Source: Trematomus loennbergii (lineage: Eukaryota; Chordata; Actinopteri; Perciformes; Nototheniidae). Taken from it: 64,000 nt of DNA. The notes under the pieces were generated by a model. The model ran no database searches and was not told where the DNA came from. It worked only from the letters and a program-made list of their open reading frames with translations. Below, in pieces: positions 20,773 to 60,261 of the stretch (position 1 is the first letter of the stretch; each line of letters starts with the position of its first letter). The stretch spans positions 310,001 to 374,000 of the forward strand of contig JAAOOA010000064.1 of assembly GCA_012861695.1 (NCBI GenBank). The letters are read 5' to 3'. Both the position numbers and the translations under genes were made by a program.

Positions 20773-22325
20773 CCTCTTAAGCCCTGAGCCTGTTTTTCAG
20801 GTCTCAGGCTCGAAAATGACATTCCCAGAACAAATGACCATATCTTCCCTTCTCAAAGGGTTAAATTAATAATCTTTATTCTCAAAGTAATGATAAACCT
20901 GTGAGTTGGATGTAGAAAAGTCAGAATCAATATACAGATGGAATCAATATACAGATGGAGATATACATGGAGAATATACAGTACCTCATATACCCTTCCC
21001 TCCATCCTTCATCCATCTCTCCTTCCCCTGTCCCTGGTATAACTGAGCATATCTAAGAGTATACATCATATGTTGTATGTATTACTGTTGGTATGTATGC
21101 AAATGTATTCTGCTCCCTGACTCAAATGGTGTGTGTGGTGAGTGGTTGGTGTTTATGGGTATGTGTGTGTTCTTACCTGAGGCCTGGAGGACGGGGGCTG
21201 TGTGTGTGTGCGTCGTGGCCGCGGTCGGGAGGCTGTGTAGTGCCTCAGAGTCTGTCCCTGGGTGGGTAGAGGCTCCATTGGGGAAGCGGGGGGTCCAGAG
21301 CTGAGCATCTGTAGATGTTTTTTATTTTAAAGAAAATTCAGATTTTACATAGTAAAAAACTGTAAATTATAGTGTCCGTCCAAAAACTATTTTTTACAGA
21401 TAGTGAAACTACCCTTGGATGATGGGTTAGTAGACTAAAAGCTTTAGGAATCCAAAGTACAACATATAATAAGTACCCTGTATCAAGATTGATGCAAAAC
21501 AAGTGAAATTTGACCTTTTTAGAGAGATTTAGCCAAAAACCCCCACTTCTGGGGTCATTTGGGTGGATTTGACCTATCTCTGGCCCCCTTGGTCGATTTT
21601 GATGAATGAAATCTCTTTATAACCGCTAGAGCCAATGGAATCGAGGGAAAGTTATATACACACCAAAACGTTAACAAATAAGGAGTGAGAGTGACGCGTT
21701 ACAAAAACCGGAAGCTGCATACACTCTGGTGGCTACCATTAGCAGCTAACTTTTCCGCTCCGATTTTTACATAAAAATGGAATTATGGATTATAAATAAT
21801 TTTTTAAAAGGTACAAGTACATTATCAACCTTTGGATCAACAGTTGTAGATTTTTTTTTTTCGTTTTAATGCCATTGAACACGTCTTTTGACCTAATTGA
21901 CAGCTACGGTGAGACGATCTGCCGTAAAAGCCCCGTAAAGGTACGTGTTGTGATGTCTGTGTTTGCTTCCCCTGTCGCAAGTTGGGATCGCTCAGTGATG
22001 ATACTATACCTAAATAATCAGTGGAGTCTCAGCTTTAATAGGCTATATTGTATGTGCAGCTACGATAAGTAATAAGGGTATCTTTATCTTGAATTGTGTG
22101 CCGCAGTTCGTTAGATTTTTTTCGCTCAGGGGCCATTTAGACCCTTCTTATGAGACTTGTGTTTAGTTTTGGTAAAAATGGTTCATATCTTCAGTTAGCT
22201 GAGATTATTCCCGTTAATCTGGTGCTACACATTAATAGTTTCATAAATGTTAAGAAGCCTGAGACATTATCTCGAAAACAAAAAGGTGGGAGGGGTCCAA
22301 TGGGGGGACCGCCGTGCTTAAGAGG
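20773..22325. mobile_element. TTAA-target transposon copy 1 (CCTCTTAAGC termini)
   Basis: The ends CCTCTTAAGC and GCTTAAGAGG are inverted and bracketed by TTAA on both sides (20,769–20,772 and 22,326–22,329). That target is used by piggyBac and Kolobok superfamilies. The body matches the copies at 41,401 and 42,566 at high identity, except for about 375 extra bp (about 20,936–21,312) interrupting CAATATAGATG. It carries the conserved short ORF MPLNTSFDLIDSYGETICRK (21,869–22,072), followed by a donor-like AAAG|GTACGTG. No transposase is visible, so it is non-autonomous. Confidence 0.9.
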
Positions 22326-41400: not shown

Positions 41401-43749
41401 CCTCTTAAGCCCTGAGCCTGTTTTTCAGGTCTCAGGCTCGAAAATGACATTCCCAGAACAAATGACCATATCTTCCCTTCTAAAAGGGTTAAATTAATAA
41501 TTTTTATTCTCAAAGTAATGATAAACCTGTGAGTTGGATTAGAAAAGTCAGAATCAATATAGATGTTTTTTATTTTAAAGAAAATTCAGATTTTACATAG
41601 TAAAAAACTGTAAATTATAGTGTCGTCCAAAAACTATTTTTTACAGATAGTGAAAACTACCCTTGGATGATGGGTTAGTAGACTAAAAGCTTTAGGAATC
41701 CAAAGTACAACATATAATAAGTACCCTGTATCAAGATTGATGCAAACAAGTGAAATTTGACCTTTTTAGAGAGATTTAGCCAAAACCCCACTTCTGGGGT
41801 CATTTGGGTGGATTTGACCTATCTCTGGCCCCCCTTGGTCGATTCTGATGAATGAAATCTCTTTATAAGCTAGAGCCAATGGAATCGAGGGGAAGTTATA
41901 TACACACCAAAACGTTAACAAATAAGGAGTGAGAGTGACGCGTTACAAAAACCGGAAGCTGCATACACTCTGGTGGCTACCATTAGCAGCTAACTTTTCC
42001 GCTCCGATTTTTACATAAAAAATGGAATTATGGATATAAATAATTTTTTAAAAGGTACAAGTACATTATCAACCTTTGGATCAACAGTTGTAGATTTTTT
42101 TTCTTTCGTTTTAATGCCATTGAACACGTCTTTTGACCTAATTGACAGCTACGGTGAGACGATCTGCCGTAAAAGCCCCGTAAAGGTACGTGTTGTGATG
42201 TCTGTGTTTGCTTCCCCTGTCGCAAGTTGGGATCGCTCAGTGATGATACTATACCTAAATAATCAGTGGAGTCTCAGCTTTAATAGGCTATATTGTATGT
42301 GCAGCTACGATAAGTAATAAGGGTATCTTTATCTTGAATTGTGTGCCGCAGTGCGTTAGATGTTTTTTGCTCAGGGGTCATTTAGACCCTTCTTATGAGA
42401 CTTGTGTTTTGTTTTGGTAAAAATGGTTAATATCTTCAGTTAGCTGAGATTCTTCCCGTTAATCTGGTGCTACACATTAATAGTTTCATAAATGTTAGAA
42501 GCCCTGAGACATTATCTCGAAAACAAAAAGGTGGGAGGGGTCCAATGGGGGACCGCCGTGCTTAACCTCTTAAGCCCTGAGCCTGTTTTTCAGGTCTCAG
42601 GCTCGAAAATGACATTCCCAGAACAAATGACCATATCTTCCCTTCTAAAAGGGTTAAATTAATAATCTTTATTCTCAAAGTAATTATAAACCTGTGAGTT
42701 GGATGTAGAAAAGTCAGAATCAATATAGATGTTTTTTATTTTAAAGAAAATTCAGATTTTACATAGTAAAAAACTGTAAATTATAGTGTCCGTCCAAAAA
42801 CTATTTTTTACAGATAGTGAAAACTACCCTTGGATGATGGGTTAGTAGACTAAAAGCTTTAGGAATCCAAAGTACAACATATAATAAGTACCCTGTATCA
42901 AGATTGATGCAAACAAGTGAAATTTGACCTTTTTAGAGAGATTTAGCCAAAAAACCCACTTCTGGGGTCATTTGGGTGGATTTGACCTATCTCTGGCCCC
43001 CCTTGCTCGATTTTGATGAATGAAATCTCTTTATAACCGCTAGAGCCAATAGAATCGAGGGAAAGTTATATACACACCAAAACGTTAACAAATAAGGAGT
43101 GAGAGTGACGCGTTACCAAAACCGGAAGCTGCATACACTCTGGTGGCTACCATTAGCAGCTAACTTTTCCGCTCCGATTTTTACATAAAAAATGGAATTA
43201 TGGATTATAAATAATTTTTTAAAAGGTTACAAGTACATTATCAACCTTTGGATCAACAGTTGTGGATTTTTTTTTTTTCGTTTTAATGCCATTGAACACG
43301 TCTTTTGACCTAATTGACAGCTACGGTGAGACGATCTGCCGTAAAAGCCCCGTAAAGGTACGTGTTGTGATGTCTGTGTTTGCTTCCCCTGTCGCAAGTT
43401 GGGATCGCTCAGTGATGATACTATACCTAAATAATCAGTGGAGTCTCAGCTTTAATAGGCTATATTGTATGTGCAGCTACGATAAGTAATAAGGGTATCT
43501 TTATATTGAATTGTGTGCCGCAGTGCGTTAGATTTTTTTCGCTCAGGGGTCATTTAGACCCTTCTTATGAGACTTGTGTTTTGTTTTGGTAAAATGGTTC
43601 ATAACTTCAGTTAGCTGAGATTCTTCCCGTTAATCTGGTGCTACACATTAATAGTTTCATAAATGTTAAGAAGCCCTGAGACATTATCTCGAAAACAAAA
43701 AGGTGGGAGGGGTCCAATGGGGGACCGCCGTGCTTAAGAGGTTAAGAGG
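41401..43749. mobile_element. TTAA-target transposon copy 2, split by copy 3
   Basis: It starts CCTCTTAAGC after TTAA at 41,397–41,400 and runs to GCTTAA at 42,560–42,565. The last four bases of its terminus, GAGG, lie at 43,746–43,749 beyond copy 3 and are followed by TTAA. The body is ~95% or more identical to copies 1 and 3. It carries the longest version of the shared ORF (42,030–42,317, MDINNFLKGTSTLSTFGSTV then MPLNTSFDLIDS). It lies in an intron of the lysine-rich gene. Confidence 0.9.
42566..43741. mobile_element. TTAA-target transposon copy 3, nested in the end of copy 2
   Basis: Flanked by TTAA at 42,562–42,565 and 43,742–43,745. The target was the TTAA within copy 2's own terminal repeat (GC-TTAA-GAGG). 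Both inverted ends (CCTCTTAAGC/GCTTAAGAGG) are complete. The shared ORF reads MPLNTSFDLIDSYGETICRK (43,262–43,489 from the first ATG) with an 11–12-base T run upstream that varies between copies. Confidence 0.92.
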
Positions 43750-44963: not shown

Positions 44964-45902
44964 AGGAAACCTATCATGCTATATTTAAATGATATATTGT
45001 AGGGCCATACCTATATAAGGTATATTTATACGTTTCTGTTTTCAAAATACCAAACAGATCATGCATTTTAGCCATGCCTCATTTCGCTCTATGTGCTGTT
45101 TGCTGTCTACGGGTCTGATTCTGCTGACCACGCCCCCCTGCAGGAGAGGGGAGACGTGCTCTGATCAGCTGCTGGGCTGTCAGAAGAGGGGGAGAAAAAG
45201 AGATCTCCGTCCTCCGTGTTTTATTATATAGAGTCGTTATTCATTTGTTTTAAAGCTCAATAAATAACAAAGAAGATCTTTGACCGGCACTTCTAATTTT
45301 GTCCGGAAGATTTAAACTTTAACGGACATCTTGACCGGCGAAAGTAACTGAAACTGAAACTCTGCCGCACGGTCCCCTCGTTCCTTGGAAGAGGCGGAGA
45401 GGTGGGTGTTTGTCATCTGCTGGTGGACTAACCGGAGAGAATTACAGTGCTTGCCTCGACGGGGAGGGATTGCATTGAATTAAAGCAGCAGGAGCAAACG
45501 CTTGCCTCGGGGAGGGAGAAAGAAAGCCACAGCGGAGAATAAACAGACGGGTAACCATGGTAACCAAGTCTTCTTCGCTGCTTTTGTGGCAGACTCCAGC
45601 GCCACTTACAGGCCTGGCATATGTACTACAGCGTCTCCAGCGCTTTCGACCGGGAATGGCCGGGGCTGTCTCCTCCTGATTGGTGGAGTTGGCCCAATAG
45701 CCGTAGCGCCACCGTCCTGACGTCAGGACAGTGTTCAAATCTGGATCAGTTTTTATCAGATCCGTTGCAGCCCCTTTTTTAGAGATTTGGGTATGGAGGA
45801 AAATAGAGAGGGTTGTGTTTTCTGACACTTGGTGAGTTCCCTGGAACACCGGGGACACATATTCATGTAGAAAAGACGTGCATTTTGCATGATAGGTCCC
45901 CT
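44964..45902. mobile_element. TTAA-target element, complete, ~939 bp
   Basis: TTAA at 44,960–44,963 and 45,903–45,906 flank inverted ends AGGAAACCTATCATGC and GCATGATAGGTCCCCT. It is related to the element at 39,441, in opposite orientation. It contains a piece of the CAGAGTTC-ended repeat (about 45,267–45,365). TTAA targets and these ends fit Kolobok- or piggyBac-mobilised MITEs. Open frames up to 155 codons on the minus strand have no recognisable similarity. Confidence 0.8.
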
Positions 45903-46357: not shown

Positions 46358-47313
46358 ACTTTGGGAGACAACGGTACTGCATGTCACGAAGGGACAGATT
46401 CACCTACAGCCAGTGATGCTGGGCTTATAGACCCAGAGCAAGAGGTCGTCTCTCCACTGGTTCCTCAACCAACATCTGTGCTTCACTGCGGCTCACAGTG
46501 TAACCTCAGACCTTTCCATCGTTCATCAGGTAGTGTAAATGTAACACAGAAGTAGCGCGCCCATTTGACACCAAAACGCGGTAAAGACTCGGCATAGCTT
46601 TGTACATGTTATAAACATATTAGAAAAACATCTCAGTATGATGCAGGCTGTTACAACTCCAACACTTGCTATGACCTCAATAATTAACATATCAATGAAT
46701 TAAAACATCTCAGCCCGAATGTCAACAAAACCTGAACATAAGCTTTGTAAAGGTAGATGTTATGGCAGGGCTGTTGCATTGGATTGCATTACATTGTACA
46801 AGTGTATCTAATAAAGTGGCCACTGAATGTATGATGTTTCACAATTATATAAGGCCAACCTCTTTTTATCCTAGCTGTCCAGGTACAGCCCAGGATGGTC
46901 AGTGTGGGGTGTCAGACAGAATCTCCACTGCCCAGTCCTGCACACAGTGATGAGTCCTCCTCTGTTTCCATGGACCACCCTGGGGATATGCCATGGAGCC
47001 CAGAGGAGGAAATGATGAGCGAGTCGTCTGACGAGGAACCATCAAAAGAGCCACTGCAGCAAACTAATTTTGATCTCAAGTAAGGCTTCTTTTAATTTGA
47101 GATGATGTGTATTACCAAATTGTGTCAGTCAGAAATAACAAGTGTTTTTTTTCTTTTTTCAGTGCTGCTGACAAGTTCATTGTGTGCCAAAGCCAGCTGA
47201 TGTCCTTGTTCACCATTTGCCCTGCCTGTTGTGGGGAAACCCAGGGTTATGTGGAGCAGCAAGAGGGAACGTATATCAAGATAAAACAAGAGGATATGTG
47301 TGAATTCCACTGA
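46358..47313 (+). pseudogene. Kolobok-type transposase gene, 5' part (three exons)
   Basis: Exons 46,358–46,529, 46,875–47,079 and 47,163–47,313 have AG/GT borders and join in phase throughout. The product is acidic, with VGCQTESPLPSPAHSDES and MDHPGDMPWSPEEEMM. It ends KFIVCQSQLMSLFTICPACC, GTYIKIKQEDMCEF and a stop at 47,311. The KFIV…L…LF…CP-x-C…GT-x-I…KQ block is the conserved zinc region of fish Kolobok transposases. About 130 residues that normally follow are missing here. The C-terminal half lies at 58,657–60,261, beyond a Harbinger piece and the tyrosine-recombinase element. No THAP domain was found upstream. Confidence 0.75.
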
Positions 47314-47424
47314 TGTAAAAATAAAGGTTGTATCATAACCTGTATGTAAATGTTTGTTTTATTTTTATGTTTTATCAATTCACTGTGTATATACTTCATT
47401 AGTTTTATGGTATAATTGACTGAC

Positions 47425-47975
47425 TAACGGACCGTCCACACAGCAGCGTTAAAAAATCTTGAAACGCTTCTGCCCATTCACTTTGAATGGGGTGACGTCA
47501 CTTTGCCTCACTTTTCGCCGAACTGCATTGTGGGCAGGCGAGCGGAGATTTTCAGGATTTTCAGGATTCAAAGTTGAGCAATGTTCAACTTTTGAAGCTG
47601 AGGTGGAAGCGTCAGCCAATCAAATCCTGTGTATGCAAATCTGACAGTTCAAGCGCTAGCCAATCAAACCGCGTGTATGCTGAGAGAGACATACCGCAGG
47701 TCATTTCCTCATATTCCAAAAAATGGAGGAGAAATGAGCGGTAGGGAATCACCCGGTGCTTTATGACCAGTCCCTATTTACCTACCGGGATATAAACCGG
47801 ATAAGGGAATGCTCTGGTTTTCGGACAAAATTAACATGGGATCACTCCCGTCACTGGACGTACTTCGTCTCACTGGAATAGTAACGGTCATAGTCAATAT
47901 AAAATCGTCCCCATGTATCCGGCCAATGACGGGAGAGTTTTGAAAGAGACAAAACACTGTTCCATACATTTAAAA
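47425..47975 (+). mobile_element. Harbinger-type fragment with MADF/Myb-like exon
   Basis: It begins near CGGACCGTCCACACAGCAGC, a typical Harbinger-like start. Around 47,721 the plus strand reads MEEK, a stop, then VGNHPVLYDQSLFTYRDINR. This is the N-terminal half of the MADF (Myb/SANT-like) DNA-binding protein that accompanies Harbinger transposases. The reading frame decays after ~40 codons. No matching 3' end or DDE transposase was seen. It abuts the left repeats of the tyrosine-recombinase element. Confidence 0.65.
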
Positions 47976-48125
47976 ACACTTAAACAATTAAACAATGTTT
48001 ACCCCAGGATTCAGGCATCTTCCCTGGCTTGTAAAGTGCAGTTATGCGCCTTGGAGGTATTGCACTATTTACAAAATGTATACCCAGGATTCTGGCCCCT
48101 TCCCTGGCTTGTAAAGTGCAGTTGT

Positions 48126-48578
48126 AAAGTCTTGTTAGAAACTGGTGAATCTGTTTAAATGCAGGCAGCAGAGACACTGCTTTTAGCGGGGTCTCAGAGA
48201 GCCAGACACCCAGGATACAGCACCTCGCTGTCTTACCCAGAAAACAGGGCTCTGATCAGGGCTAAAGTCTTGTTAGAAACTGGTGAATCTGTTTAAATGC
48301 AGGCAGCAGAGACACTGCTTTTAGCGGGGTCTCAGAGAGCCAGACACCCAGGGTACAGCACCTCGCTGTCTTACCCAGAAAACAGGGCTCTGATCAGGGC
48401 TAAAGTCTTGTTAGAAACTGGTGAATCTGTTTAAATGCAGGCAGCAGAGACACTGCTTTTAGCAGGGTCTCAGAGAGCCAGACACCCAGGGTACAGCACC
48501 TCGCTGTCTTACCCAGAAAACAGGGCTCTGATCAGGGCTAAAGTCTTGTTAGAAACTGGTGAATCTGTTTAAATGCAG
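48126..48578. repeat. 138-bp tandem repeat, 3.3 copies
   Basis: Units start AAAGTCTTGTTAGAAACTGG at 48,126, 48,264, 48,402 and 48,540, with only one or two substitutions between copies. The last copy is truncated at AAATGCAGG, where the 113-bp family begins. Confidence 0.95.
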
Positions 48579-50085
48579 GAGACCTCCAGCAGAAGTCCCT
48601 AACAGTGGGACTCTGGTTATTTCACAGCTCCAGGAGAGACCAGGGGAAAATCACCTGTCTGTGCCCGCTCACAGACCCCCAAAGTACGGACTCATGACCT
48701 CCAGCATGGCCCCCTAACAGTGGGACTCTGGTTATTTCACAGCTCCAGGAGAGACCAGGGGAAAATCACCTGTCTGTGCCCGCTCACAGACCCCCAAAGT
48801 ACGGACTCATGACCTCCAGCATGGCCCCTAACAGTGGGACTCTGGTTATTTCACAGCTCCAGGAGAGACCAGGGGAAAATCACCTGTCTGTGCCCGCTCA
48901 CAGAGCCCCGAAGACGGACTCATGACCTCCAGCATGGCCCCTAACAGTGGGACTCTGGTTATTTCACAGCTCCAGGAGAGACCAGGGGAAAATCACCTGT
49001 CTGTGCCCGCTCACAGACCCCAAAGTACGGACTCATGACCTCCAGCATGGCCCCTAACAGTGGGACTCTGTTATTTCACAGCTCCAGGAGAGACCAGGGG
49101 AAAATCACCTGTCTGTGCCCGCTCACAGACCCCCAAAGTACGGACTCATGACCTCCAGCATGGCCCCTAACAGTGGGACTCTGGTTATTTCACAGCTCCA
49201 GGAGAGACCAGGGGAAAATCACCTGTCTGTGCCCGCTCACAGAGCCCCGAAAGACGGACTCATGACCTCCAGGATGGCCCCTAACAGTGGGACTCTGTGC
49301 ATTTCACAGCTCCAGGAGAGACCAGGGGAAAATCACCTGTCTGTGCCCGCTCACAGACCCCCAAAGTACGGACTCATGACCTCCAGCATGGCCCCTAACA
49401 GTGGGACTCTGTGCATTTCACAGCTCCAGGAGAGACCAGGGGAAAATCACCTGTCTGTGCCCGCTCACAGACCCCCAAAGTACGGACTCATGACCTCCAG
49501 CATGGCCCCTAACAGTGGGACTCTGTGCATTTCACAGCTCCAGGAGAGACCAGGGGAAAATCACCTGTCTGTGCCCGCTCACAGAGCCCGAAGACGGACT
49601 CATGACCTCCAGGATGGCCCCTAACAGTGGGACTCTGTGCATTTCACAGCTCCAGGAGAGACCAGGGGAAAATCACCTGTCTGTGCCCGCTCACAGACCC
49701 CAAAGTACGGACTCATGACCTCCAGGATGGCCCCTAACAGTGGGACTCTGTGCATTTCACAGCTCCAGGAGAGACCAGGGGAAAATCACCTGTCTGTGCC
49801 CGCTCACAGAGCCCCGAAGACGGACTCATGACCTCCAGGATGGCCCCTAACAGTGGGACTCTGGTTATTTCACAGCTCCAGGAGAGACCAGGGGAAAATC
49901 ACCTGTCTGTGCCCGCTCACAGACCCCCAAAGTACGGACTCATGACCTCCAGCATGGCCCCTAACAGTGGGACTCTGGCATTTCACAGCTCCAGGAGAGA
50001 CCAGGGGAAAATCACCTGTCTGTGCCCGCTCACAGAGCCCCGAAGGACGGACTCATGACCTCCAGCATGTCCCCATAACAGTGGG
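48579..50085. repeat. ~114-bp tandem repeat, 13 copies
   Basis: The unit contains ACCTCCAGCATGGCCCCTAA, CTCCAGGAGAGACCAGGGGA and TGTCTGTGCCCGCTCACAGA. The copies are 112–116 bp and nearly identical. The plus strand gives overlapping repetitive ORFs of up to 169 codons (38-residue period), but single-base length differences shift the frame every few units. I therefore read it as satellite and not as protein. Confidence 0.95.
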
Positions 50086-50169
50086 ACCTCCATAACCTTG
50101 CACACCCTGAGTCCCCGGGCCCCCACACTTAAGCACTCCCCCACGGACTAAACACAGGTATTCACACCC

Positions 50170-50515
50170 ACCAGAACCTCGTGCCCCTGGTGACCCTAAA
50201 GGGGGTGGATTTTGTGGTGCTTCTATGTCCGCCCATCAGCATCCATAGTCGGCCTTCTTCACGGCACCACCACCCCTTCTGTTGAGGGTATTCTCGTGCC
50301 CCTGGTGACCCTAAAGGGGGTGGATTTTGTGGTGCTTCTATGTCCGCCCATCAGCATCCATAGTCGGCCTTCTTCACGGCACCACCACCCCTTCTGTTGA
50401 GGGTATTCTCGTGCCCCTGGTGACCCTAAAGGGGGTGGATTTTGTGGTGCTTCTATGTCCGCCCATCAGCATCCATAGTCGGCCTTCTTCACGGCACCAC
50501 CACCCCCCTTCTGGG
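50170..50515. repeat. 115-bp tandem repeat, left block, three copies
   Basis: Units begin CTCGTGCCCCTGGTGACCCT and contain GTCGGCCTTCTTCACGGCAC. A diverged set of the same unit is at 56,810–57,175 in the same orientation on the other side of the recombinase gene. Confidence 0.92.
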
Positions 50516-50844
50516 CTGGAGGTTCAAACACTTTAACTTTTGTTCACCCTCCTCTGGCTTACACCTCCTCCGCCAACACTTGAGCGCTCATCACAGGGTT
50601 CAGCACCCCGGTGCTGATGGAAAGTGGCACTTTATCTGCCCCTGGTAACCATCAAGGTTATTGTTTTTTTTTTTTTTTATTTTATTTGAACACACACCCT
50701 AAAACATCAACCACACACCCTAAAACATCAACTATTTACACGTTGCAGTAACAAAAATGACAGTACACACAGACTAAAACATCAACTATTTACACGTACT
50801 ACTGCTGCTATAACAGTACTACTAAATTTCTTAACCTACGTTTT

Positions 50845-51400
50845 AAAGTGCAGTTATGCGCCCTGGAGGTGTTGCACTATTAACAAAATGTATGCCCAGG
50901 ATTCTGGCACCTTCCCTGGCTTGTAAAGTGCAGTTATGCGCCCTGGAGGTGTTGCACTATTAACAAAATGTATGCCCAGGATTCTGGCACCTTCCCTGGC
51001 TTGTAAAGTGCAGTTATGCGCCCTGGAGGTGTTGCACTATTAACAAAATGTATGCCCAGGATTCTGGCACCTTCCCTGGCTTGTAAAGTGCAGTTATGCG
51101 CCCTGGAGGTGTTGCACTATTAACAAAATGTATGCCCAGGATTCTGGCACCTTCCCTGGCTTGTAAAGTGCAGTTATGCGCCCTGGAGGTGTTGCACTAT
51201 TAACAAAATGTATGCCCAGGATTCTGGCACCTTCCCTGGCTTGTAAAGTGCAGTTATGCGCCCTGGAGGTGTTGCACTATTAACAAAATGTATGCCCAGG
51301 ATTCTGGCACCTTCCCTGGCTTGTAAAGTGCAGTTATGCGCCCTGGAGATATTGTACTATTTACAAAATGTATACACAGGATTATAATAATAATTATATA
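50845..51400. repeat. 80-bp tandem repeat adjoining the recombinase gene, seven copies
   Basis: Exact 80-bp period with starts at 50,845, 50,925, 51,005, 51,085, 51,165, 51,245 and 51,325. Six copies look identical; the seventh is diverged (GATATTGTACTATTTAC). The array ends ~25 bp beyond the recombinase stop codon. It could supply the gene's transcription end or recombinase binding sites; both are inference. Confidence 0.97.
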
Positions 51401-51423
51401 CACGGTATACATATTCACAATGT

Positions 51424-54204
51424 TTAGCGGGATTCAGGGGACCAAAGGCGTCTAATTCTTACGGTGCACCAGGGCAAACAGGTTGAGTCCACGGCCCCTG
51501 CCCCATCATCAGGAGTGTCAACCAGCCCCGGTCCCGACTTCATTGGCCTCTTTCCCTCCCGCTTCCGCTTCCGCTGCTGCTGCCGCTCCAATGACCCATC
51601 AGGTGAAGATGATGGAGCAGTACTGTTATAGCAGCCCTCTTCGGAGGTCTCCCCATCTGACAGCGGTAGACATCCTTCTGATGATGATGCAGCTGCTGCC
51701 GCATCTGATGACGCCCTGAACATGGAGCGGATTCTCAATGCCTCCTTTATTCCCGGCGCATTCGCGTAGAACCGGTCCGCCGTGGTTACGTCGTGACACA
51801 TAAACCTGGCGAGAATCGACCGGCTTTCTGGATCTTGGTGATGCTTGATATTGTCAGCCAGGGCAGTGCGCAGGATTGTGAAGGTGACGGCTGTTTCTAG
51901 CCCAGCATCAGCCCATGCCCTCTTCAAGTGAGCGTTCAGGTTCTTGGAGGCCCGATTCCCCCTTGTGAAAAGGAAGAATTCATTCTGAGGACCCAGCAAT
52001 ACCTTTTTAATCCCCATCCACCGCATGACCCAGCTAAACTCCTCTACTGTAAGCGCCAGCTGTGCTTCGCCATATGTCTTGGCCGTCTTGTGATCCTGCA
52101 CATGGATGATGTAGCCCTCAGCAGTTCCCCTTATGGCTGCCTCTAAGACCTCACTGTTTTTCATGTTTGCGTACACGCCCGTACGGTGGCCATACAGGAG
52201 GCTCCAATGGAGGGTGAGATAGCCATAGAGAAGCTTCTGGGTGGTTGAGGTCGGCGTGCCGGCCATCAGGTCGAGGAGCTCCGGGATGCGCTTCTCAGCG
52301 GCCGCCATGGCGGCGAGAAGCTCCGCCTGGCTCGGCAGACGATCCAGTTTGTTCCTCTTCACCTTAAACTGATGTAGAGTGACTGCCTTATTCAAGTGTT
52401 TCATGTTGGCTTTCACCTCTCTCATTATGTGGGTCATATCAGACTGGGTGAGCTTGCACCCCCGGGGCTTTGACTCAGACATGTACCCCATGAACTGGTG
52501 CACATTCTTCAGGAAGAACTCTGATGTTGTGACTGCCCGGCCCGGCTTTACAATATACTCGCTCCAGCCACGGATCATCTTCATGTTTCTTAGGAACAGC
52601 CAGTCTGACAGGCGGTTAACACCATGGGCCATGTATACTATGAAGTTCTTTATCCGGCTGATCTTCGACACAACATTGTCTTTCTGTTTTACTGTCGGAG
52701 CGACACCCAAACAATGATCCAAGTATGTCTGAAGGTACGCCTCCATGCTTCTAGGCAACGTGATTTCACGCATGGTATTCCCCCGTCCACACCCAGTGGA
52801 CCAGTAATTTGAGGGAGAGGGCAAGTCATTAGCCAGCTTAGAGGCACGGGTCTTCCGGCATACAGGGGTCTCGCTACCGGAGGCTACTGCAAACATGACA
52901 GTTTCCACCGGGGTCTTCACAGGGGTCTCGCTACCGGAGGCTACTGCAAACATGACAGTTTCCACCGGGGTCTTCACAGGGGTCTCGCTACCGGAGGCTA
53001 CTGCAAACATGACAGTTTCCACCGGGGTCTTCACAGGGGTCTCGCTACCGGAGGCTACTGCAAACATGACAGTTTCCACCGGGGTCTTCACAGGGGTCTC
53101 GCTACCGGAGGCTACTGCAAACATGACAGTTTCCACCGGGGTCTTCACAGGCGTCTCGCTACCGGAGGAAACTGGTAATATGACAGTCTTCACTGGGCTC
53201 TTCACAGGGTTCTTGACCGGTCTCTTTCCACCGGAGGCTACTGCAAGCATTACAGTCTTCACTTGGCTCTTCACAGGGTTCTTTACCGGTGTCTTCCCAC
53301 CGGAGGCTACTGCAAGCATGACAGTCTTCACCGGGCTCCTCACAGGGGTCCCGCTACCGGAGGTTACTGGGGAATGCATGACAGTCTTCACCGGGGTCTT
53401 CACAGGGGTCCCGCTACCGGAGGTTACTGGGGAATGCATGACAGTCTTCACCGGGGTCTTCACAGGGGTCCCGCTACCGGAGGTTACTGGGGAATGCATG
53501 ACAGTCTTCACCGGGGTCTTCACAGGGGTCCCGCTACCGGAGGTTACTGGGGACTGCATGACAGTCTTCACCGGGGTCTTCACAGGGGTATTGCTGCCTG
53601 AGGCTACTGTGTTTATGCCGGAGGTACTTGGGATTGCCAGGCCCTTAAATCGTATACATTCGTCCTCTTCCTCAAGAACAGCAGCACTCTGCTTCCTGGG
53701 TTTTAGCTCCTTTTTCAGCCTGGAGCGCAGGGTCTTCACCTCATCATTGAGGGCATCCTTCTGAGCCCTCAATGCCACATTTTCCAGCATCACCTGCCTG
53801 CAGTCCTCGTTGTCACACTCGGTATGTGGGGAGAAGGGTGGAGGGTGCCCGGGGTATTCCCCCTCATTGTCTATATCCAATGATGTAGCCATTCCAATGA
53901 TGGGGTTAGTCTCACGGAGGTCATGGAGCAACTGCAGTGCCACACTATGCTTCAGCCTTGCCATGACCTGCTGTGCCTCATGTCGGGACAACTCAGGGTG
54001 GTCATGTTTTACATGACGGTCCAGTCTCTTCCCAGCGTACGAACACCCAGCGATGGGACAGGGTTTGGTCCGAACATTTATCCTTCCACTGGCTATTTTC
54101 AGGAGGATTCCCCTCTCCTCCAAGTTCCGCACTGCATGCTTGTGCTTAAGGTGTTTGTTCAATGCCAGATAGAAGAGTCTGCACACCGGGCATTCAGATG
54201 ACAT
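51424..54204 (-). CDS. Zinc-finger tyrosine recombinase, Crypton-like
   Basis: Start chosen at MSSECPVC (54,204) because TGTGTTTCAG, a splice acceptor, lies just upstream. An earlier in-frame ATG at 54,237 would add 11 residues. Counting from that earlier ATG (937 residues): two C2H2-like fingers (C16–C19…H29/H34; C60–C65…H75/H80), a coiled-coil-like stretch (~165–200), about 12 in-frame repeats of 19–22 residues (TPVKTPV-[K/E]-TVM, ~225–455), then the recombinase fold. Catalytic candidates: R685 (YGHRTGV), K717 (QDHKTAK), R790 (TILRTAL; Thr where His is usual), H815 and Y824 (MCHDVTTADRFY, H+9 = Y). Tyr codon at 51,766–51,768. The Ser-rich, basic tail may hold a nuclear signal. No reverse transcriptase is nearby, so this is not DIRS or Ngaro. 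Its likely role is to cut and join the element's DNA in the nucleus. Confidence 0.85.
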   Translation of the reverse strand: MSSECPVCRLFYLALNKHLKHKHAVRNLEERGILLKIASGRINVRTKPCPIAGCSYAGKRLDRHVKHDHPELSRHEAQQVMARLKHSVALQLLHDLRETNPIIGMATSLDIDNEGEYPGHPPPFSPHTECDNEDCRQVMLENVALRAQKDALNDEVKTLRSRLKKELKPRKQSAAVLEEEDECIRFKGLAIPSTSGINTVASGSNTPVKTPVKTVMQSPVTSGSGTPVKTPVKTVMHSPVTSGSGTPVKTPVKTVMHSPVTSGSGTPVKTPVKTVMHSPVTSGSGTPVRSPVKTVMLAVASGGKTPVKNPVKSQVKTVMLAVASGGKRPVKNPVKSPVKTVILPVSSGSETPVKTPVETVMFAVASGSETPVKTPVETVMFAVASGSETPVKTPVETVMFAVASGSETPVKTPVETVMFAVASGSETPVKTPVETVMFAVASGSETPVCRKTRASKLANDLPSPSNYWSTGCGRGNTMREITLPRSMEAYLQTYLDHCLGVAPTVKQKDNVVSKISRIKNFIVYMAHGVNRLSDWLFLRNMKMIRGWSEYIVKPGRAVTTSEFFLKNVHQFMGYMSESKPRGCKLTQSDMTHIMREVKANMKHLNKAVTLHQFKVKRNKLDRLPSQAELLAAMAAAEKRIPELLDLMAGTPTSTTQKLLYGYLTLHWSLLYGHRTGVYANMKNSEVLEAAIRGTAEGYIIHVQDHKTAKTYGEAQLALTVEEFSWVMRWMGIKKVLLGPQNEFFLFTRGNRASKNLNAHLKRAWADAGLETAVTFTILRTALADNIKHHQDPESRSILARFMCHDVTTADRFYANAPGIKEALRIRSMFRASSDAAAAASSSEGCLPLSDGETSEEGCYNSTAPSSSPDGSLERQQQRKRKREGKRPMKSGPGLVDTPDDGAGAVDSTCLPWCTVRIRRLWSPESR
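52868..53640. repeat. Coding minisatellite in the recombinase gene
   Basis: Five 57-bp units (from 52,868, each starting GTCTCGCTACCGGAGGCTAC on the plus strand) are followed by more variable units and four 60–66-bp units (GTCCCGCTACCGGAGGTTAC). All lengths are multiples of three, so the frame is kept. Units are nearly identical in DNA, indicating recent expansion or homogenisation. Confidence 0.95.
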
Positions 54205-54239
54205 CCTTACTGAAACACACATAATGAATTTGATCAAAA

Positions 54240-54704
54240 TGATGTTATAGTTCTCCGTTTATATGCGTTAGCGTGAGCGGTGGTTGCGACACTGGGTCCG
54301 ATGCATCAATTCATGGTGCATGGACGAAGGGAAGTATTGGGTTACCACCGGGTCAGATGGTCCCACTTCCGCACCAACGCGGGGCTGGTGATGGCAACAT
54401 TGGGTCCGATGCATCCATACATGGTGCCCCGACCATGAGAGGGTTTGGGGTACCCCGGAACCAGGCACCACCCCAGCAGGAAACGGGTTGTATGGTCAAA
54501 GGAGGAAAGAGTGATAGAACCGGGGTAAAGCAAAGAAAGTGTCCGACAATAGTGACTTGTGAGGCGGCCAGAGAGTCTGTCATATCTCGGTCCTATCCTC
54601 CAGGCAACGCTGTGGCCAAAACTGGGCTAAAAACAAAAAAAACTAAAAAATATTCATCCAGGGAAATTTGGGTGAAAATGAAAAAAAAGTACCCGGAAAT
54701 AGTG
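54240..54704. other. Presumed 5' region of the recombinase gene
   Basis: It contains two diverged copies of GGGTCCGATGCATC…CATGGTGC (54,293–54,325 and 54,403–54,427), ~110 bp apart. The upstream exon and promoter of the minus-strand recombinase gene should lie here. I could not identify a TATA box or the donor that would pair with the acceptor at about 54,209. Confidence 0.4.
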
Positions 54705-55110
54705 CTTCATTAGCCAGCAGCAGTCCCCTGTCGACTCATGTGACATTCCTCCAGGGTTACATAGAACCAGGGTGTGGGGTCCGAGCCATCTCCGAGACAT
54801 CTCTAGTCCGTGTTGATAATGGGGGAAATGTACCCCAAAATAGTCCTTCATTAGCCAGCAGCAGTCCCCTGTCGACTCATGTGACATTCCTCCAGGGTTA
54901 CATAGAACCAGGGTGTGGGGTCCGAGCCATCTCCGAGACATCTCTAGTCCGTGTTGATAATGGGGGAAATGTACCCCAAAATAGTCCTTCATTAGCCAGC
55001 AGCAGTCCCCTGTCGACTCATGTGACATTCCTCCAGGGTTACATAGAACCAGGGTGTGGGGTCCGAGCCATCTCCGAGACATCTCTAGTCCGTGTTGATA
55101 ATGAGGTACC
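54705..55110. repeat. 141-bp tandem repeat, three copies
   Basis: Units start TAGCCAGCAGCAGTCCCCTG at 54,711, 54,852 and 54,993, nearly identical. 141 is a multiple of three, so both strands stay open over 150–190 codons. The two frames mirror the repeat and carry no family signature. Confidence 0.95.
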
Positions 55111-55124
55111 CCCAAAAAAGTGCA

Positions 55125-55990
55125 TCATGACTCAGCAATCATCACACTCAACTTTGGTGAGAACCGGGGAAAGGGGTCAAAATGTAAAAATTATACCCCA
55201 AAACAGTGCTCATGACCCCGCAGGAGTCCCCCGCGGACTCCCCTGACATTCCTCCATGGTCGTAATCACCCAACTCAACTTTGGTGAGAACCGGGGAAAG
55301 GGGTCAAAATGTAAAAAATACCCCAAAACAGTGCCTCATGACCCCGCAGGAGTCCCCCGCGGACTCCCCTGACATTCCTCCATGGTCGTAATCACCCAAC
55401 TCAACTTTGGTGAGAACCGGGGAAAGGGGTCAAAATGTAAAAAATATACCCCAAAACAGTGCCTCATGACCCCGCAGGAGTCCCCCGCGGACTCCCCTGA
55501 CATTCCTCCATGGTGGAAATCATCCAACTCAACTTTGGTGAGAACCGGGGAAAGGGGTCAAAATGGAAAAATTGTACCCCAAAGTGCCTCATGACCCCGC
55601 AAGAGTCCCCCGCGGACTCCCCTGACATTCCTCCATGGTGGAAATCATCCAACTCAACTTTGGTGAAAACCGGGGAAAGGGGTCAAAATGTAAAAATTAT
55701 ACCCCAAAATAGTGCCTCAAAATCGGGTAGAGTCACCGGGAAAGTGCCCTCGCATTCCTCCAGGGCTCAAAATGTCGCACTTAAACTATTTGGAGAACCG
55801 GGAAAATGTAAAAAATACATCCCAAAATAGTGCCTCATAATCGGGTAGAGTCACCTGCAAAAGTGCCCTCGCATTCCTCCAGGGCTCAAAATGTCGCACT
55901 TAAACTATTTGGAGAACCGGAAAATGTAAAAAATACATCCCAAAATAGTGCCTCATAATCAGAGTCACCTGCAAAAGTGCCCTCGCATTC
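55125..55990. repeat. ~128-bp tandem repeat array, with a diverged distal subfamily
   Basis: Five units built on CAACTCAACTTTGGTGAGAA, CCGGGGAAAGGGGTCAAAAT and GAGTCCCCCGCGGACTCCCC (a 14-bp palindrome-like core) run from 55,145 to 55,720. A second type (AATCGGGTAGAGTCACC, CTCGCATTCCTCCAGGGCTC) follows in three copies to 55,990. The two types share CATTCCTCCA and CCCCAAAATAGTG, so they are related. Confidence 0.9.
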
Positions 55991-56790
55991 CTCCATGTCG
56001 AACTTAAAGTATTGGGAGAACCAGGCTGGGGGGTCTTGAGGCACAAAATGAGGCCCACTCAGAGTGCTTGGTGAGCGGATACATTCTTCCATGATTTCCA
56101 ACAGCCGTTTTTTTTCTGAGTCCACCCAAAAACTGGGTTTCTGATTTCGTGCGGAAGGTAGTCTGAAAAGTATGGATGAATCTTTTTGACAGAGAAGTGG
56201 AAATGAAGCCCAGGGACTTTTTCCCCTTCTCCGTTGTACCAACCATCGGAGAAGGGGAAAAATCGGCCCGAAGCGCCAAACACCTGGCCACTACTCCCGT
56301 TGGCACTTAGAAAAAATTTGACAATTTTTCAAAACTTCATTTTTGATTATTTTAAGATATAATTAAGCGTTTTCTTCACTTTTTTTGCTTTCCACGGGTG
56401 GGGGCGCCTGGCAGGCCGCCTATGAGCACCCAAATTCGGCCTGGATCATCCAGGATTTGTGGGAAAAAATCCATAAACTGACTAAATCACCCAGAGAGGT
56501 CCCCTACCTAGCCCAAATATATATAATACAAATACATTTAAATAGTAAAAGGTGCACTTGTGCTCTGCATTACCCGGAATTTTATTTTCATAGCCCCATG
56601 ATAGTGATTAAAAATCATTTTCATGGGAAAAAGTGTTAAAACGCCTGATTAAATTATATGCAGGACCCCAGTGAGCTCCAGACTATGTGCATTGTGTTGG
56701 GGAACCATATAAATGATAGAATAAATGCATTTAAATGCAAAAATAATGATTTAAATCATTTTAGGGGGACAATTGTGGAGAGGAGCCTGA
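55991..56790. other. Unique spacer in the right repeat arm
   Basis: Non-repetitive apart from CATCGGAGAAGGGGAAAAA, which pairs with its reverse complement (TTTTTCCCCTTCTCCG) as a hairpin at about 56,217–56,262. A single copy of the CCTATGAGCACCCAAATTCG unit lies at 56,417–56,455. Minus-strand frames of 74–118 codons have no recognisable motif. Confidence 0.4.
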
Positions 56791-56794
56791 AAAT

Positions 56795-57215
56795 GACTCT
56801 GCAGCAGGCCGCCTATGAGCACCCAAATTCGGCCTTTTCACGGCACCACCACCCTTCTGTGAAGGGTATTCTCGTGCCCCTGGTGACTCTACAAGGGGTG
56901 GTTTTTATGGTGCTTCTATGCCCGCCCATGAGCACCCAAAGTCGGCCTTCTTCACAGCACCAACACCCCTTCTGTGAAGGGTATTCTCGTGCCCCTGGTG
57001 ACTCTACAAGGGGTGGTTTTTATGGTGCTTCTATGCCCGCCCATGAGCACCCAAAGTTGGCCTTCTTCACAGCACCAACACCCCTTCTGTGAAGGGTATT
57101 CTCGTGCCCCTGGTGACTCTACAAGGGGTGGTTTTTATGGTGCTTCTATGCCCGCCCATGAGCACCCAAAGGCGGCCTGGATCATCCAGGATTTGTGGCC
57201 TAAGCTCCATAAAAC
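56795..57215. repeat. 115-bp tandem repeat, right block
   Basis: Three full units (CTCGTGCCCCTGGTGACTCT at about 56,870, 56,986 and 57,101) plus partial flanking units. They are the same family as 50,170–50,515 and same orientation, but with GAGCACCC in place of CAGCATCC. The last unit runs into GGATCATCCAGGATTTGTGG, also seen at 56,440. Confidence 0.92.
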
Positions 57216-57589
57216 TGACTACATCACCCAGAGAGGTGAAAGAGGACACATTGACCCCAACAGTAAGTGCTTGAAACGTGGCTAAAGCTGTGTTAAACTG
57301 TGGGGTAACATGTTTCAAATGACAGCACACTGCTGCTTGTTGGCAGGCTGACTCAGTTCACTTGTCTCACACACACCCAGGGGGGGAAAGATAACACTTG
57401 TACCCAGGAAAGAGTCCTCAAAACGTGGCTAAAGCTGTGTCAAACTGTGGGGTAACATGTTTCAAATGACAGCACGGTGCTGCTTGTTGGCAGGCTGACT
57501 CAGTTCACTTGTCTCACACACACCCAGGGGGGGAAAGATAACACTTGTACCCAGGAATAAGTCTTTGAAAGGCGGGGAAAAGTTGTTTG

Positions 57590-57660
57590 AAATAGTATAA
57601 TACCTCCAGGCCGCTTAACTGCACTTTACCACCCAGAAATAATGTTTAAATGGTCGGGGA
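57590..57660 (-). repeat. Inverted 80-bp-family unit, right arm
   Basis: The reverse complement reads GTAAAGTGCAGTTAAGCGGC then CTGGAGGTATTATACTATTT, matching the left-arm unit (GTAAAGTGCAGTTATGCGCC, CTGGAGGTGTTGCACTATT). A second inverted copy is at 58,505–58,575, with the same flanks on both sides. Confidence 0.8.
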
Positions 57661-57686
57661 AAGTATTTTTAAATGTCTGGAAGAGA

Positions 57687-57812
57687 GTTTTAGACAGTCA
57701 TTTTGCACGAAATCATTTAACATAGACGCTCTCCTGAAAATGCACAGAATATGTGCTTTTTCAGGAGACCGTTAATGTTAAATGATTTCGTGCAAAATGA
57801 CTGACTAAAACT
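57687..57812. mobile_element. Fold-back (MITE-like) insertion, ~126 bp
   Basis: GTTTTAGACAGTCATTTTGC and ACGAAATCATTTAACAT pair with ATGTTAAATGATTTCGT and GCAAAATGACTGACTAAAAC. An inner pair TCTCCTGAAAA/TTTTCAGGAGA extends the stem. It interrupts the right repeat arm near 57,690. Confidence 0.85.
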
Positions 57813-58656
57813 CCGGAATAAGTGTTTGAAAGGCGGGGAAAAGTTGTTTAAAATAGGCTGATACCTCCAGGACGCATAACATGGGTAAAAAGTGTGTTAA
57901 AAGGTCGGGGAACATGTTTCAAATGACAGCAGACTGGTGGTTGTTAGCAGGCTGGCTCAGTTCACTTGTCTCACACACACCCAGGGGGGGAAAGAGGACA
58001 CATTGACCCAGGAGAAAGTGCTCAAAACGTGGGTAAAAGTGTGTTGAAAAGTGGGGGTACATGTTTCAAATGACAGCACACTGCTGCTTGTTGGCAGGCT
58101 GACTCACTTCACTTGTCTCACACACACCCAGGGGGAAGAAAGAGGACACATTGGAGCACACATGACCCAGGAAAGAGTGCTCGAAACGTGGCTAAAGCAT
58201 AGTCAAAACTGTGGGGTAACATGTTTCAAATGACAGCACAACTGCTGCTTGTTGGCAGGCTGACTCACTTCACTTGTCTCACACACACCCGGGGGGAGAA
58301 GAGGACGCATTGGAGCACACATTGACCCAGGAAAGAGTGCTCGAAACGTGGCTAAAGCATAGTCAAACTGTGGGGTAACATGTGTCAAATGACAGCACAC
58401 TGTGCTTGTTGGCAGGCTGACTCAGTTCACTTGTCTCACACACACCCAGGGGGGAAAGATAACACTTGTACCCAGGAATAAGTCTTTGAAAGGCGGGGAA
58501 AAGTTGTTTGAAATAGTATAATACCTCCAGGCCGCTTAACTGCACTTTACCACCCAGAAATAATGTTTAAATGGTCGGGGAAAGTATTTCAGATCAGATG
58601 TGCTTTCGTCTGATGTGACACGGTTAGTGATAGGACTGCATAATGTTGTTTTACAG

Positions 58657-60261
58657 AGCTCAGAGGTCCCAAGCAGCACCTGGTGTGAACTAGAGGGTCT
58701 GAAACGCAGCATTGACTTCCTTAAGGAGCAACACATGCAAGTTTCAGCCCTTATTACGGACAGAAATCGCCAGGTAAAGACACACAAGAACGAACACAAT
58801 ATGTACACACAAGATTCTTGGCGCACCATATTAACAGCAAAAAATACATTTTCTTACTAGTTAGTAAGTAATTAAGGTGTTGTGTTTCACTCTTTAGGTT
58901 GCCAAGTGGGTGTGGGAGGAGTTGTGTCCAGGAGGAACAAGTCATTTCTTTGATATCTGGCATATTGGTAAAAGTATGTATCTTGATGTTGGTATGTTTG
59001 ATTAGGCTCGCTTTTGTTTATAATTACATTTTCTTTTTTAACATTTTGTTTCTGTTGTGAAACAGGTCTAGGGAAAGCTTTGGATGCTGCTGCAAAGGAG
59101 AGGGAGTGTGAGGACCTGAAGCTGTGGAGGCCAGCCATCATTAATCACCTGTACTGGACTGCAGCTTCCACTCCTGATGGAGATCCAGATGTGATGGAAG
59201 CCAAGTGGCAAAGTATGGTGAATCATGTTCAGGACATCCATGAACACGGCACTCCTGCATTTCCCTGCTGTGCACATCCACCTCTGGAGGGAGAAGCAAG
59301 GGACAAGGAGTGGCTGGAACCAGGTACAACGTTGCTGACAATTCTTAGTCGTCCAACTGCTTGTTGGTGCTTAGTTTATTTTGGTTCCAGAGCACTCCAT
59401 CAATATATAACCCAAAGTGTGCTAACACATTAACAAGGCGTTATATAAATAACACCTGATAGTATCACACAATCGTGCTTTTATCAGTGTAGGTAATAAA
59501 TGCATATGTAGACAATTCTAGTAACATCAGAACACAATCTGTGTTTATGCACAACTGCAGCCATTAAACTGGAGAGGGTGACTTCAAGAACAGCATTGGT
59601 GAAGGATGTTCGGAAGTTGTCTCCAGACCTATTCCCTGGAGGCATTTCACTCCCTCATCCTCCACTTTGCACCAAAGCACACTGGGTTCTCCTTCCTTGG
59701 GATGTACAGCAGGTAAATATGATGTGATGGTGAAAGAATGTGTACGGCTTAGGGACAACTTGTGAACTGCATAATCTGCTTTTCTACAGGCTTCTCATGG
59801 CAGCCCTGCACTTTAACCACAATAGCAGCAGAGAGGTTGCTCGAACCAGTGATGGTGAGGTGCGTTATGCAGTTTGCTACCCAACGTTCTGCAAAGGTGG
59901 CTGGGTAGTTCGCCCTATCAAGGAGAAGCCATCATACGGTTAGCTGTTTTACTCGGTCCCTAAATATTATTTATTGTGTGATGCATCTATAATATCACTG
60001 AATGTGATCACTTGGTTCCTTCCTTCAGCATACGCTGCAGCCCTGATGGAGTCTCTGAGAGAGGGCTACTCCAGGTCACCAGAGACTCTACGAGAGAGCA
60101 GTGCAGTCGTGTCCTCCACTGCCCCTGCCCCCCTTTCCACTTCCTGCCAGGAGATCGCCAAGGATGAGGCAGTTGGCCTTTATCTTGCACGGCATTCCCG
60201 GTTTAACACAGGAAATGAGTGTGAAAGCAGCAGATTCTGTGGTTCACAGTTTTCAGGTTAA
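58657..60261 (+). pseudogene. Kolobok-type transposase gene, 3' part (six exons)
   Basis: Exons at 58,657–58,773 (SSEVPSSTWCELEGLKRSID), 58,898–58,973 (VAKWVWEELCP…FFDIWHIGK), 59,066–59,323 (LGKALDAAAKERE, NHLYWTAASTPDGDPDVMEA, KWQSMVNHVQDIHEHG), 59,561–59,712, 59,790–59,938 (LLMAALHFNHNSS) and 60,029–60,261. The order ELEGL…TDRN-x-Q…FD-x-WH…NHLYW…KW-x-S-x-x-NH…LAALH-x-N is the Kolobok transposase core, including presumed catalytic acidic residues (D of TDRN, D of FDIWH). Exon 59,561 is shifted after LSPDLF: another frame gives LEAFHSLILHFAPKHTGFSF, so the copy is inactive. Splice borders are otherwise normal. The first exon's acceptor lies ~60 bp after the last recombinase-element repeat. 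Confidence 0.85.

Follow-up and report, generated by a model that had tools for sequence, protein, structure and literature searches.

A tyrosine-recombinase transposon with satellite arms in the genome of Trematomus loennbergii, probably recently mobile and apparently inserting into its own copies

We analysed a stretch of 64,000 nucleotides from Trematomus loennbergii (contig JAAOOA010000064.1, positions 310,001 to 374,000; hereafter the window), in which an earlier note, made from the sequence alone, had placed a large tyrosine-recombinase (YR) DNA transposon whose satellite arms were its own. This claim held, the arms adjoining the recombinase gene at other loci as well (11 copies compared, that of the window included). 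The element is very probably a circle-forming DNA transposon of about 10 kb encoding one tyrosine recombinase, mobile until recently and perhaps still so. On our best reading, it is Crypton-like in its mode and self-targeting.

The recombinase gene (51424..54237, minus strand) was recognized from the list of open reading frames (ORFs), the repeats, a protein search of the host's own genome, alignment and the predicted fold. Its 937 codons are open throughout. The N-terminal part of the 937-aa protein has a zinc-finger-like Cys/His pair, variable 19–20-aa repeats are encoded at 52862-53609, and the C-terminal YR domain spans about residues 490-860. Alignment with relatives gave the order R685, K717, R790, H815 and Y824, positions whose roles we assume to be those of their counterparts in Cre; the HxxR position has TxxR. 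The protein is predicted to fold as a YR, and a fold search matched it to XerH, Cre and the lambda and Tn1549 integrases. The intact ORF with R, K, R, H and Y in this order, as described in the note, was thus confirmed. Only the fold search gave a recombinase match among solved structures, where sequence searches found none. The NCBIfam scan had no match for the protein, and in the Pfam scans, with E limits of 1-5, DUF3504 had no row, which is weak evidence. Relatives of 33-47% identity kept the catalytic residues wherever the alignment covered them. The named relatives came from Gymnodraco, Pseudochaenichthys, Brachyistius, Scophthalmus, Liparis, Lates, Melanotaenia, Fundulus and Poecilia. 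They are annotated as uncharacterized or hypothetical proteins, one of them also as “Tyr recombinase domain-containing”, with no transposon name given.

A 57/60-bp coding tandem repeat (52862-53609) was the main source of gene-length differences between copies, with open frames of 925-963 aa. One protein match (P0006), which has a bacterial DNA-binding domain and aligned to the repetitive part, was judged to be due to chance. Over 11% of the query, an icefish alpha-tectorin-like model (P0005) had 72% identity with the N-terminal part of the recombinase, and is a candidate for a chimeric gene model or an exonised element. Three places (G000:C1836:76672-78222, G000:C2:31879595-31880779 and G000:C3564:773671-775068) gave a slightly better match to the surfperch relative P0013 than did the majority of family copies, and are perhaps other families of the recombinase lineage in the same genome. 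No relatives of the element were found in the viral contigs scanned, and the Rfam (gathering threshold) and tRNA scans gave no match.

Pattern searches of the 1.21 Gb host genome detected 918 element 5' ends (up to 3 mismatches) and 866 3' ends (up to 2 mismatches), with 0 matches for the reversed-pattern controls of both. The earlier note had proposed looking for further copies of the ORF. Recombinase genes, full-length or nearly so and 99-100% identical, were found in at least 49 places, a lower bound because the own-genome protein search returned the best candidates only; 48 of the 49 had no internal stop. We compared the window copy with ten others, chosen among the best matches. Similarity between copies fell sharply at either element end, and the flanks were mostly unrelated. 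Over 1400 nt of the recombinase ORF, 28 of 45 pairs were identical and the mean difference was 0.029% (10 copies including that of the window, without C135, which has an assembly gap). Judging by their sequences, many element copies are very young. The family as a whole is probably less uniform than these ten, because the sampled copies were among the best matches.

The arrays on either side of the ORF, reported in the note, are real according to the repeat search. Units of 80, 114 and 115 bp adjoined the gene on its 3' side in 10 of the 11 copies, the exception being C135, which meets its assembly gap there. On the 5' side, 141-bp units were present in all 11 copies, and 128- and 159-bp units in 10; in the remaining one, C56, the 5' side is another, inverted copy with a single 141-bp unit. 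The 138-bp units were absent from C1624 and C135, and unit numbers differed between copies. The satellite arms are part of the element, though not every array is constant, since the 5' 115-bp array occurred in only 3/11 copies. Of the arrays that the note had proposed to test for travelling with the ORF (80, 114, 115, 138 and 141 bp), all were found beside the gene elsewhere, the 5' 115-bp and 138-bp ones not in every copy. ORF copies without the repeats, which would have spoken against the note, were absent from the 11-copy sample, itself drawn from the best matches.

We checked 62 of the 3' ends, a set without some listed ends, among them those on C19, C24, C47 and C49. An upstream 5' end was present on the contig for 48, and within 20 kb for 36 (median 9.98 kb, 8.3-17.3). 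The remaining 26, for which no perfect 5' end was listed inside that distance, may have one that is truncated, as in the window copy, or altered in the TCCCTC block. There was no sign of a large population of short non-autonomous copies, the counts of the two ends being close and the paired ends lying about 10 kb apart.

Copy comparison gave TCCCTCTTAGGTGCCTTRCAAACAATGGACG as the 5' end of the element and ...GTCCGAAAACCAGAGCATTCC-CTTA-TC as its 3' end. For the target site we used 36 of 44 5' junctions, leaving out four tandem junctions and four flanks already counted (L032, L039, C325, C2010); the 5' end of C56 lay outside its fetched stretch. The bases before TCCCTC were YTNM in 26 of these 36 distinct junctions, and 35 had T at -3. 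As background, over 47 kb of the window, about 10% of TC dinucleotides follow YTNM and 31% have T at -3. Six junctions were inside the element itself (three in a palindrome, three in the 5' array), and after their removal the counts were 20/30 for YTNM and 29/30 for T at -3. The base preceding the insertion was C in 21/36 and A in 10/36. Right junctions started with CTTATC in 21/25, and with a one-base indel in the other four (L051, L060, L072, L086); the right junction of copy C706 read TATC.

Empty sites were searched by comparing 21 joined flank pairs and two left flanks with the window and the fetched loci. Uninterrupted relatives of the target were recognized at four independent sites (C17, C21, C48 and C51). 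The C17 target repeat is uninterrupted at window positions 21341-21499, 41589-41746 and 42755-42913, the C48 target at 45456-45616, and the C51 target is the element's own palindrome. All four read YTNM|TC or nearly so (ATCA for C17, ATTC for C48), so that insertion adds the element plus one TC, with no other duplication. TC is common to the left and right junctions. For the 5'-array target (C58, C5) no clean empty site was found.

Two cases point to TCCCTC, six bases, as the exchanged block. In a chain on C60, TCCGTT stood in its place in the second element (L082), and the right junction of C27 read TCCCTC, as opposed to TCCGAT in the uninterrupted palindrome. The usual overlap length of tyrosine recombinases is given as 6 to 8 bp in PMC3212892. 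Among the 5' ends in the fetched loci, TCCCTC was present in 47/48 and TCCGTT in 1/48; the 5' junction sample was drawn from listed perfect matches to a pattern containing TCCCTC, and hence the frequency of target bases at the left junction is not readable from it. A 5'-end pattern free of the block is TTAGGTGCCTTRCAAACAATGGACG. We had considered a one-sided strand exchange, as the left junctions all had TCCCTC, and withdrew it because of this sampling pattern. One-sided or copy-out exchange is not supported by the junction sample.

The 3' end of the element, together with the core, fits the target rule YTNM^TC. The head-to-tail junction CCAGAGCATTCC-CTTA-TCCCTCTTAGGTGCC had 140 matches (67+73; control 0), located on dozens of contigs and with zero mismatches among the matches listed. 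Chains with units about 10-12 kb apart were found on C1409, C1796 and C2068. A second self-landing site for other copies is the palindrome (56218..56262 in the window), with a CCCCTTC^TCCG site in either arm. Directly after its 10-mer TTTCCCCTTC there were 79 5' ends (control 0), and the 19 fetched stretches with such insertions were all in the palindrome, divided 16 to 3 between its arms, with differing host variants. At L094, a palindrome copy is seemingly occupied in both arms, with an apparent inverted 5' end of a second element upstream. The intact half-site had 1933 matches (974+959; control 1), mostly pairs 24 bp apart among the matches listed; such pairs, about two half-sites per element, show that the half-site is element-borne. 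The 3' end and the palindrome together account for 219 of the 918 5' ends (24%), which appear to lie inside the element itself. As a rough rate, the other 699 ends are spread over about 1.5e7 YTNM-TC sites (window density x genome size), about 5e-5 per site, compared with an occupancy of roughly 4% for palindrome half-sites and 16% for 3' ends. Allelic and later duplicates soften this comparison.

In the Crypton-like, self-targeting reading, the recombinase would join both ends into a circle, with CATTCCCTTA-TCCCTC-TTAGGTGCC across the joint. This circle would next recombine with the chromosome at YTNM-TCNNNN, probably by exchanging the TCCCTC overlap. As the target is similar to the 3' end of the element itself, insertion would favour the palindrome and 3' ends already in place, the latter yielding tandem chains. 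The subterminal 80-bp units in inverted orientation are putative accessory binding sites, and the remaining arrays would ride along, changing in length. We propose more tentatively, and with rather less belief than doubt, that self-targeting provides a safe haven: an integration site mimicking the element's own 3' end and a dedicated palindromic landing pad would direct about a quarter of insertions into copies, building tandem satellite-rich arrays.

Other types of transposon were weighed against this reading. Among the element's unspliced ORFs of 100 aa or more, of which the recombinase alone was profile-scanned, no DDE, HUH/helicase or reverse transcriptase (RT) gene was recognized. That filled sites are one TC longer than empty sites would fit cut-and-paste transposition by a DDE enzyme that duplicates a 2-bp TC target, with the recombinase as cargo or a resolver. 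We consider this improbable, as the DDE gene is missing from that ORF set, the compared termini CCTCTTAGG and CATTCCCTTA do not form an inverted pair, the inverted units being subterminal only, and 140 exact chain junctions are not expected of DDE insertion; also, the relatives have kept the catalytic residues of the recombinase where they cover them. Still less credible is a Helitron-like rolling-circle element with the YR gene as a passenger, although the 5' TC, the precise insertion and the tandem chains recall one, and an element taken as TCCCTC...CTTA duplicates nothing on insertion. Helitrons have a 3' CTRR end and an A^T target, whereas this element has CTTA at its 3' end and is preceded more often by C than by A; an HUH/helicase gene is likewise missing from the ORF set.

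The chains and nested copies could also stem from segmental duplication and unequal crossing-over instead of repeated self-insertion. Some flanks point that way: C325, one C1 and one C2 site have a common left flank, two C1 sites share another, and C31 and C2010 share both flanks. Such duplication is unlikely, with a small though appreciable chance, to explain the pattern, because the chain junctions are on dozens of contigs, the sampled palindrome insertions are in both arms with differing host variants, and a first chain at exactly YTNM^TC is not produced by duplication alone. To the idea that the arrays, many and long as they are, represent independent host satellites entered repeatedly by the gene, we give hardly any chance. 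The same array families, equally oriented, were found at unrelated loci, and similarity drops sharply past the element ends.

In the window copy, the true 3' terminus is at 47800 (47800..47823, minus strand; ...AAACCAGAGCATTCC-CTTA-TC in ORF orientation, with CTTATC at 47800-47805), as supported by homology among copies. On the right, element homology stops at a breakpoint (58589..58590) about 340 bp before the 5' terminus, the terminal TCCCTCTTAGG being part of the missing sequence. The ends 47976..58595 given in the note had therefore to be replaced, the right one being no terminus at all. An 80-bp-family subterminal unit (47984..48085) has inverted counterparts at 57575-57676 (102 nt, 71%) and, for the part from 47998 on, at 58496-58583 (72%). 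The note's inverted 80-bp family on the right is thus correct as to inverted units near the other end; these are subterminal and do not form the termini. The 3' arm further contains arrays of 138 bp (48125..48579), 114 bp (48581..50087) and 115 bp (50178..50506), and an 80-bp array directly past the recombinase stop codon (50844..51383). In the 5' arm there are 141-bp (54685..55103), 128-bp and 118-bp (55137..55995) and 115-bp arrays (56809..57178), followed by 147/159-bp arrays with a hairpin (57274..58459), which belong to a higher-order repeat of roughly 920 bp, found in the window copy and in C56. The hairpin (57685-57813), near the element's 5' side, has 62-nt arms, 92% complementary, and a 5-nt loop. 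The C325 copy has a similar hairpin about 200-320 bp from its 5' end.

The outer flanks (46850-47400 and 58600-59750) are pieces of one repeated, intron-bearing transposase-like gene. The left fragment matched 19 further places, 17 at full length and 94-100%, with three on C64, the contig of the window itself, which suggests a locally duplicated region. A paralogue at C64:173089, 184 kb away and 99% identical over the left part, is uninterrupted at the element position, and retains about 0.6 kb of the gene that the window has lost. Between the element and the left gene part, outside the element, there is a fragment of another dispersed repeat (47424..47728). The two halves of one transposase type seen by the note are hence parts of one gene, with a piece lost and a second repeat in between, and its clean insertion into a Kolobok transposon gives way to an element nested in a repeat fragment and deleted on its 5' side. 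The likely order is insertion of the second repeat into the gene, insertion of the element into that repeat, and deletion of the element's 5' end plus neighbouring DNA. A Kolobok context does exist, in nested and deleted form; “Kolobok” is the note's label, and Pfam gave no transposase match.

With its YR fold and ordered R-K-R-H-Y residues, the protein has the features of the tyrosine recombinases, and the element those of a Crypton in its working definition: the YR gene is its one long conserved ORF, and neither an RT nor terminal inverted repeats were recognized. It resembles the Crypton superfamily (CryptonA/F/I/S/V) as a eukaryotic YR DNA transposon without RT, with non-inverted termini and a circle model. 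It differs in that ends and site could be read, and in its about 900 copies, satellite arms, tandem chains and internal landing site. Kojima and Jurka (2011, PMC3212892) name medaka Crypton families and propose circles; they describe 4-6-bp direct repeats for fungal and oomycete Cryptons and report no terminal repeats for animal ones. Salmon families are described in PMC5753468, and a few dozen Crypton copies per species are given in PMC4157794. The cnidarian CryptonV elements also choose their target. Compared by description, some of their families are microsatellite-specific (PMC8869645), whereas here the target is YTNM-TC and the element itself. The Tn916/Tn1549 family differs in consisting of bacterial conjugative elements; here CTTA is fixed in the 3' end at most right junctions, and the exchanged block would be TCNNNN. 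The SE elements of Vibrio are likewise circle-making YR elements, with a 6-bp spacer, but PMC9345347 describes two YRs for them, and strand-biased circles that leave no empty site, neither of which was shown here. DIRS and Ngaro retrotransposons share the YR and differ by their RT, which was not recognized among the element's ORFs. We found no description of the present element in the open-licence literature.

Several conserved vertebrate genes derive from Cryptons according to PMC3212892, which leaves the ends and integration of animal Cryptons open. Here, many near-identical copies yield the ends, the insertion point and the target rule to the base for an animal YR transposon. Self-targeting through a landing pad and chains of satellite-bearing units would be a concrete route from a transposon to a satellite array.
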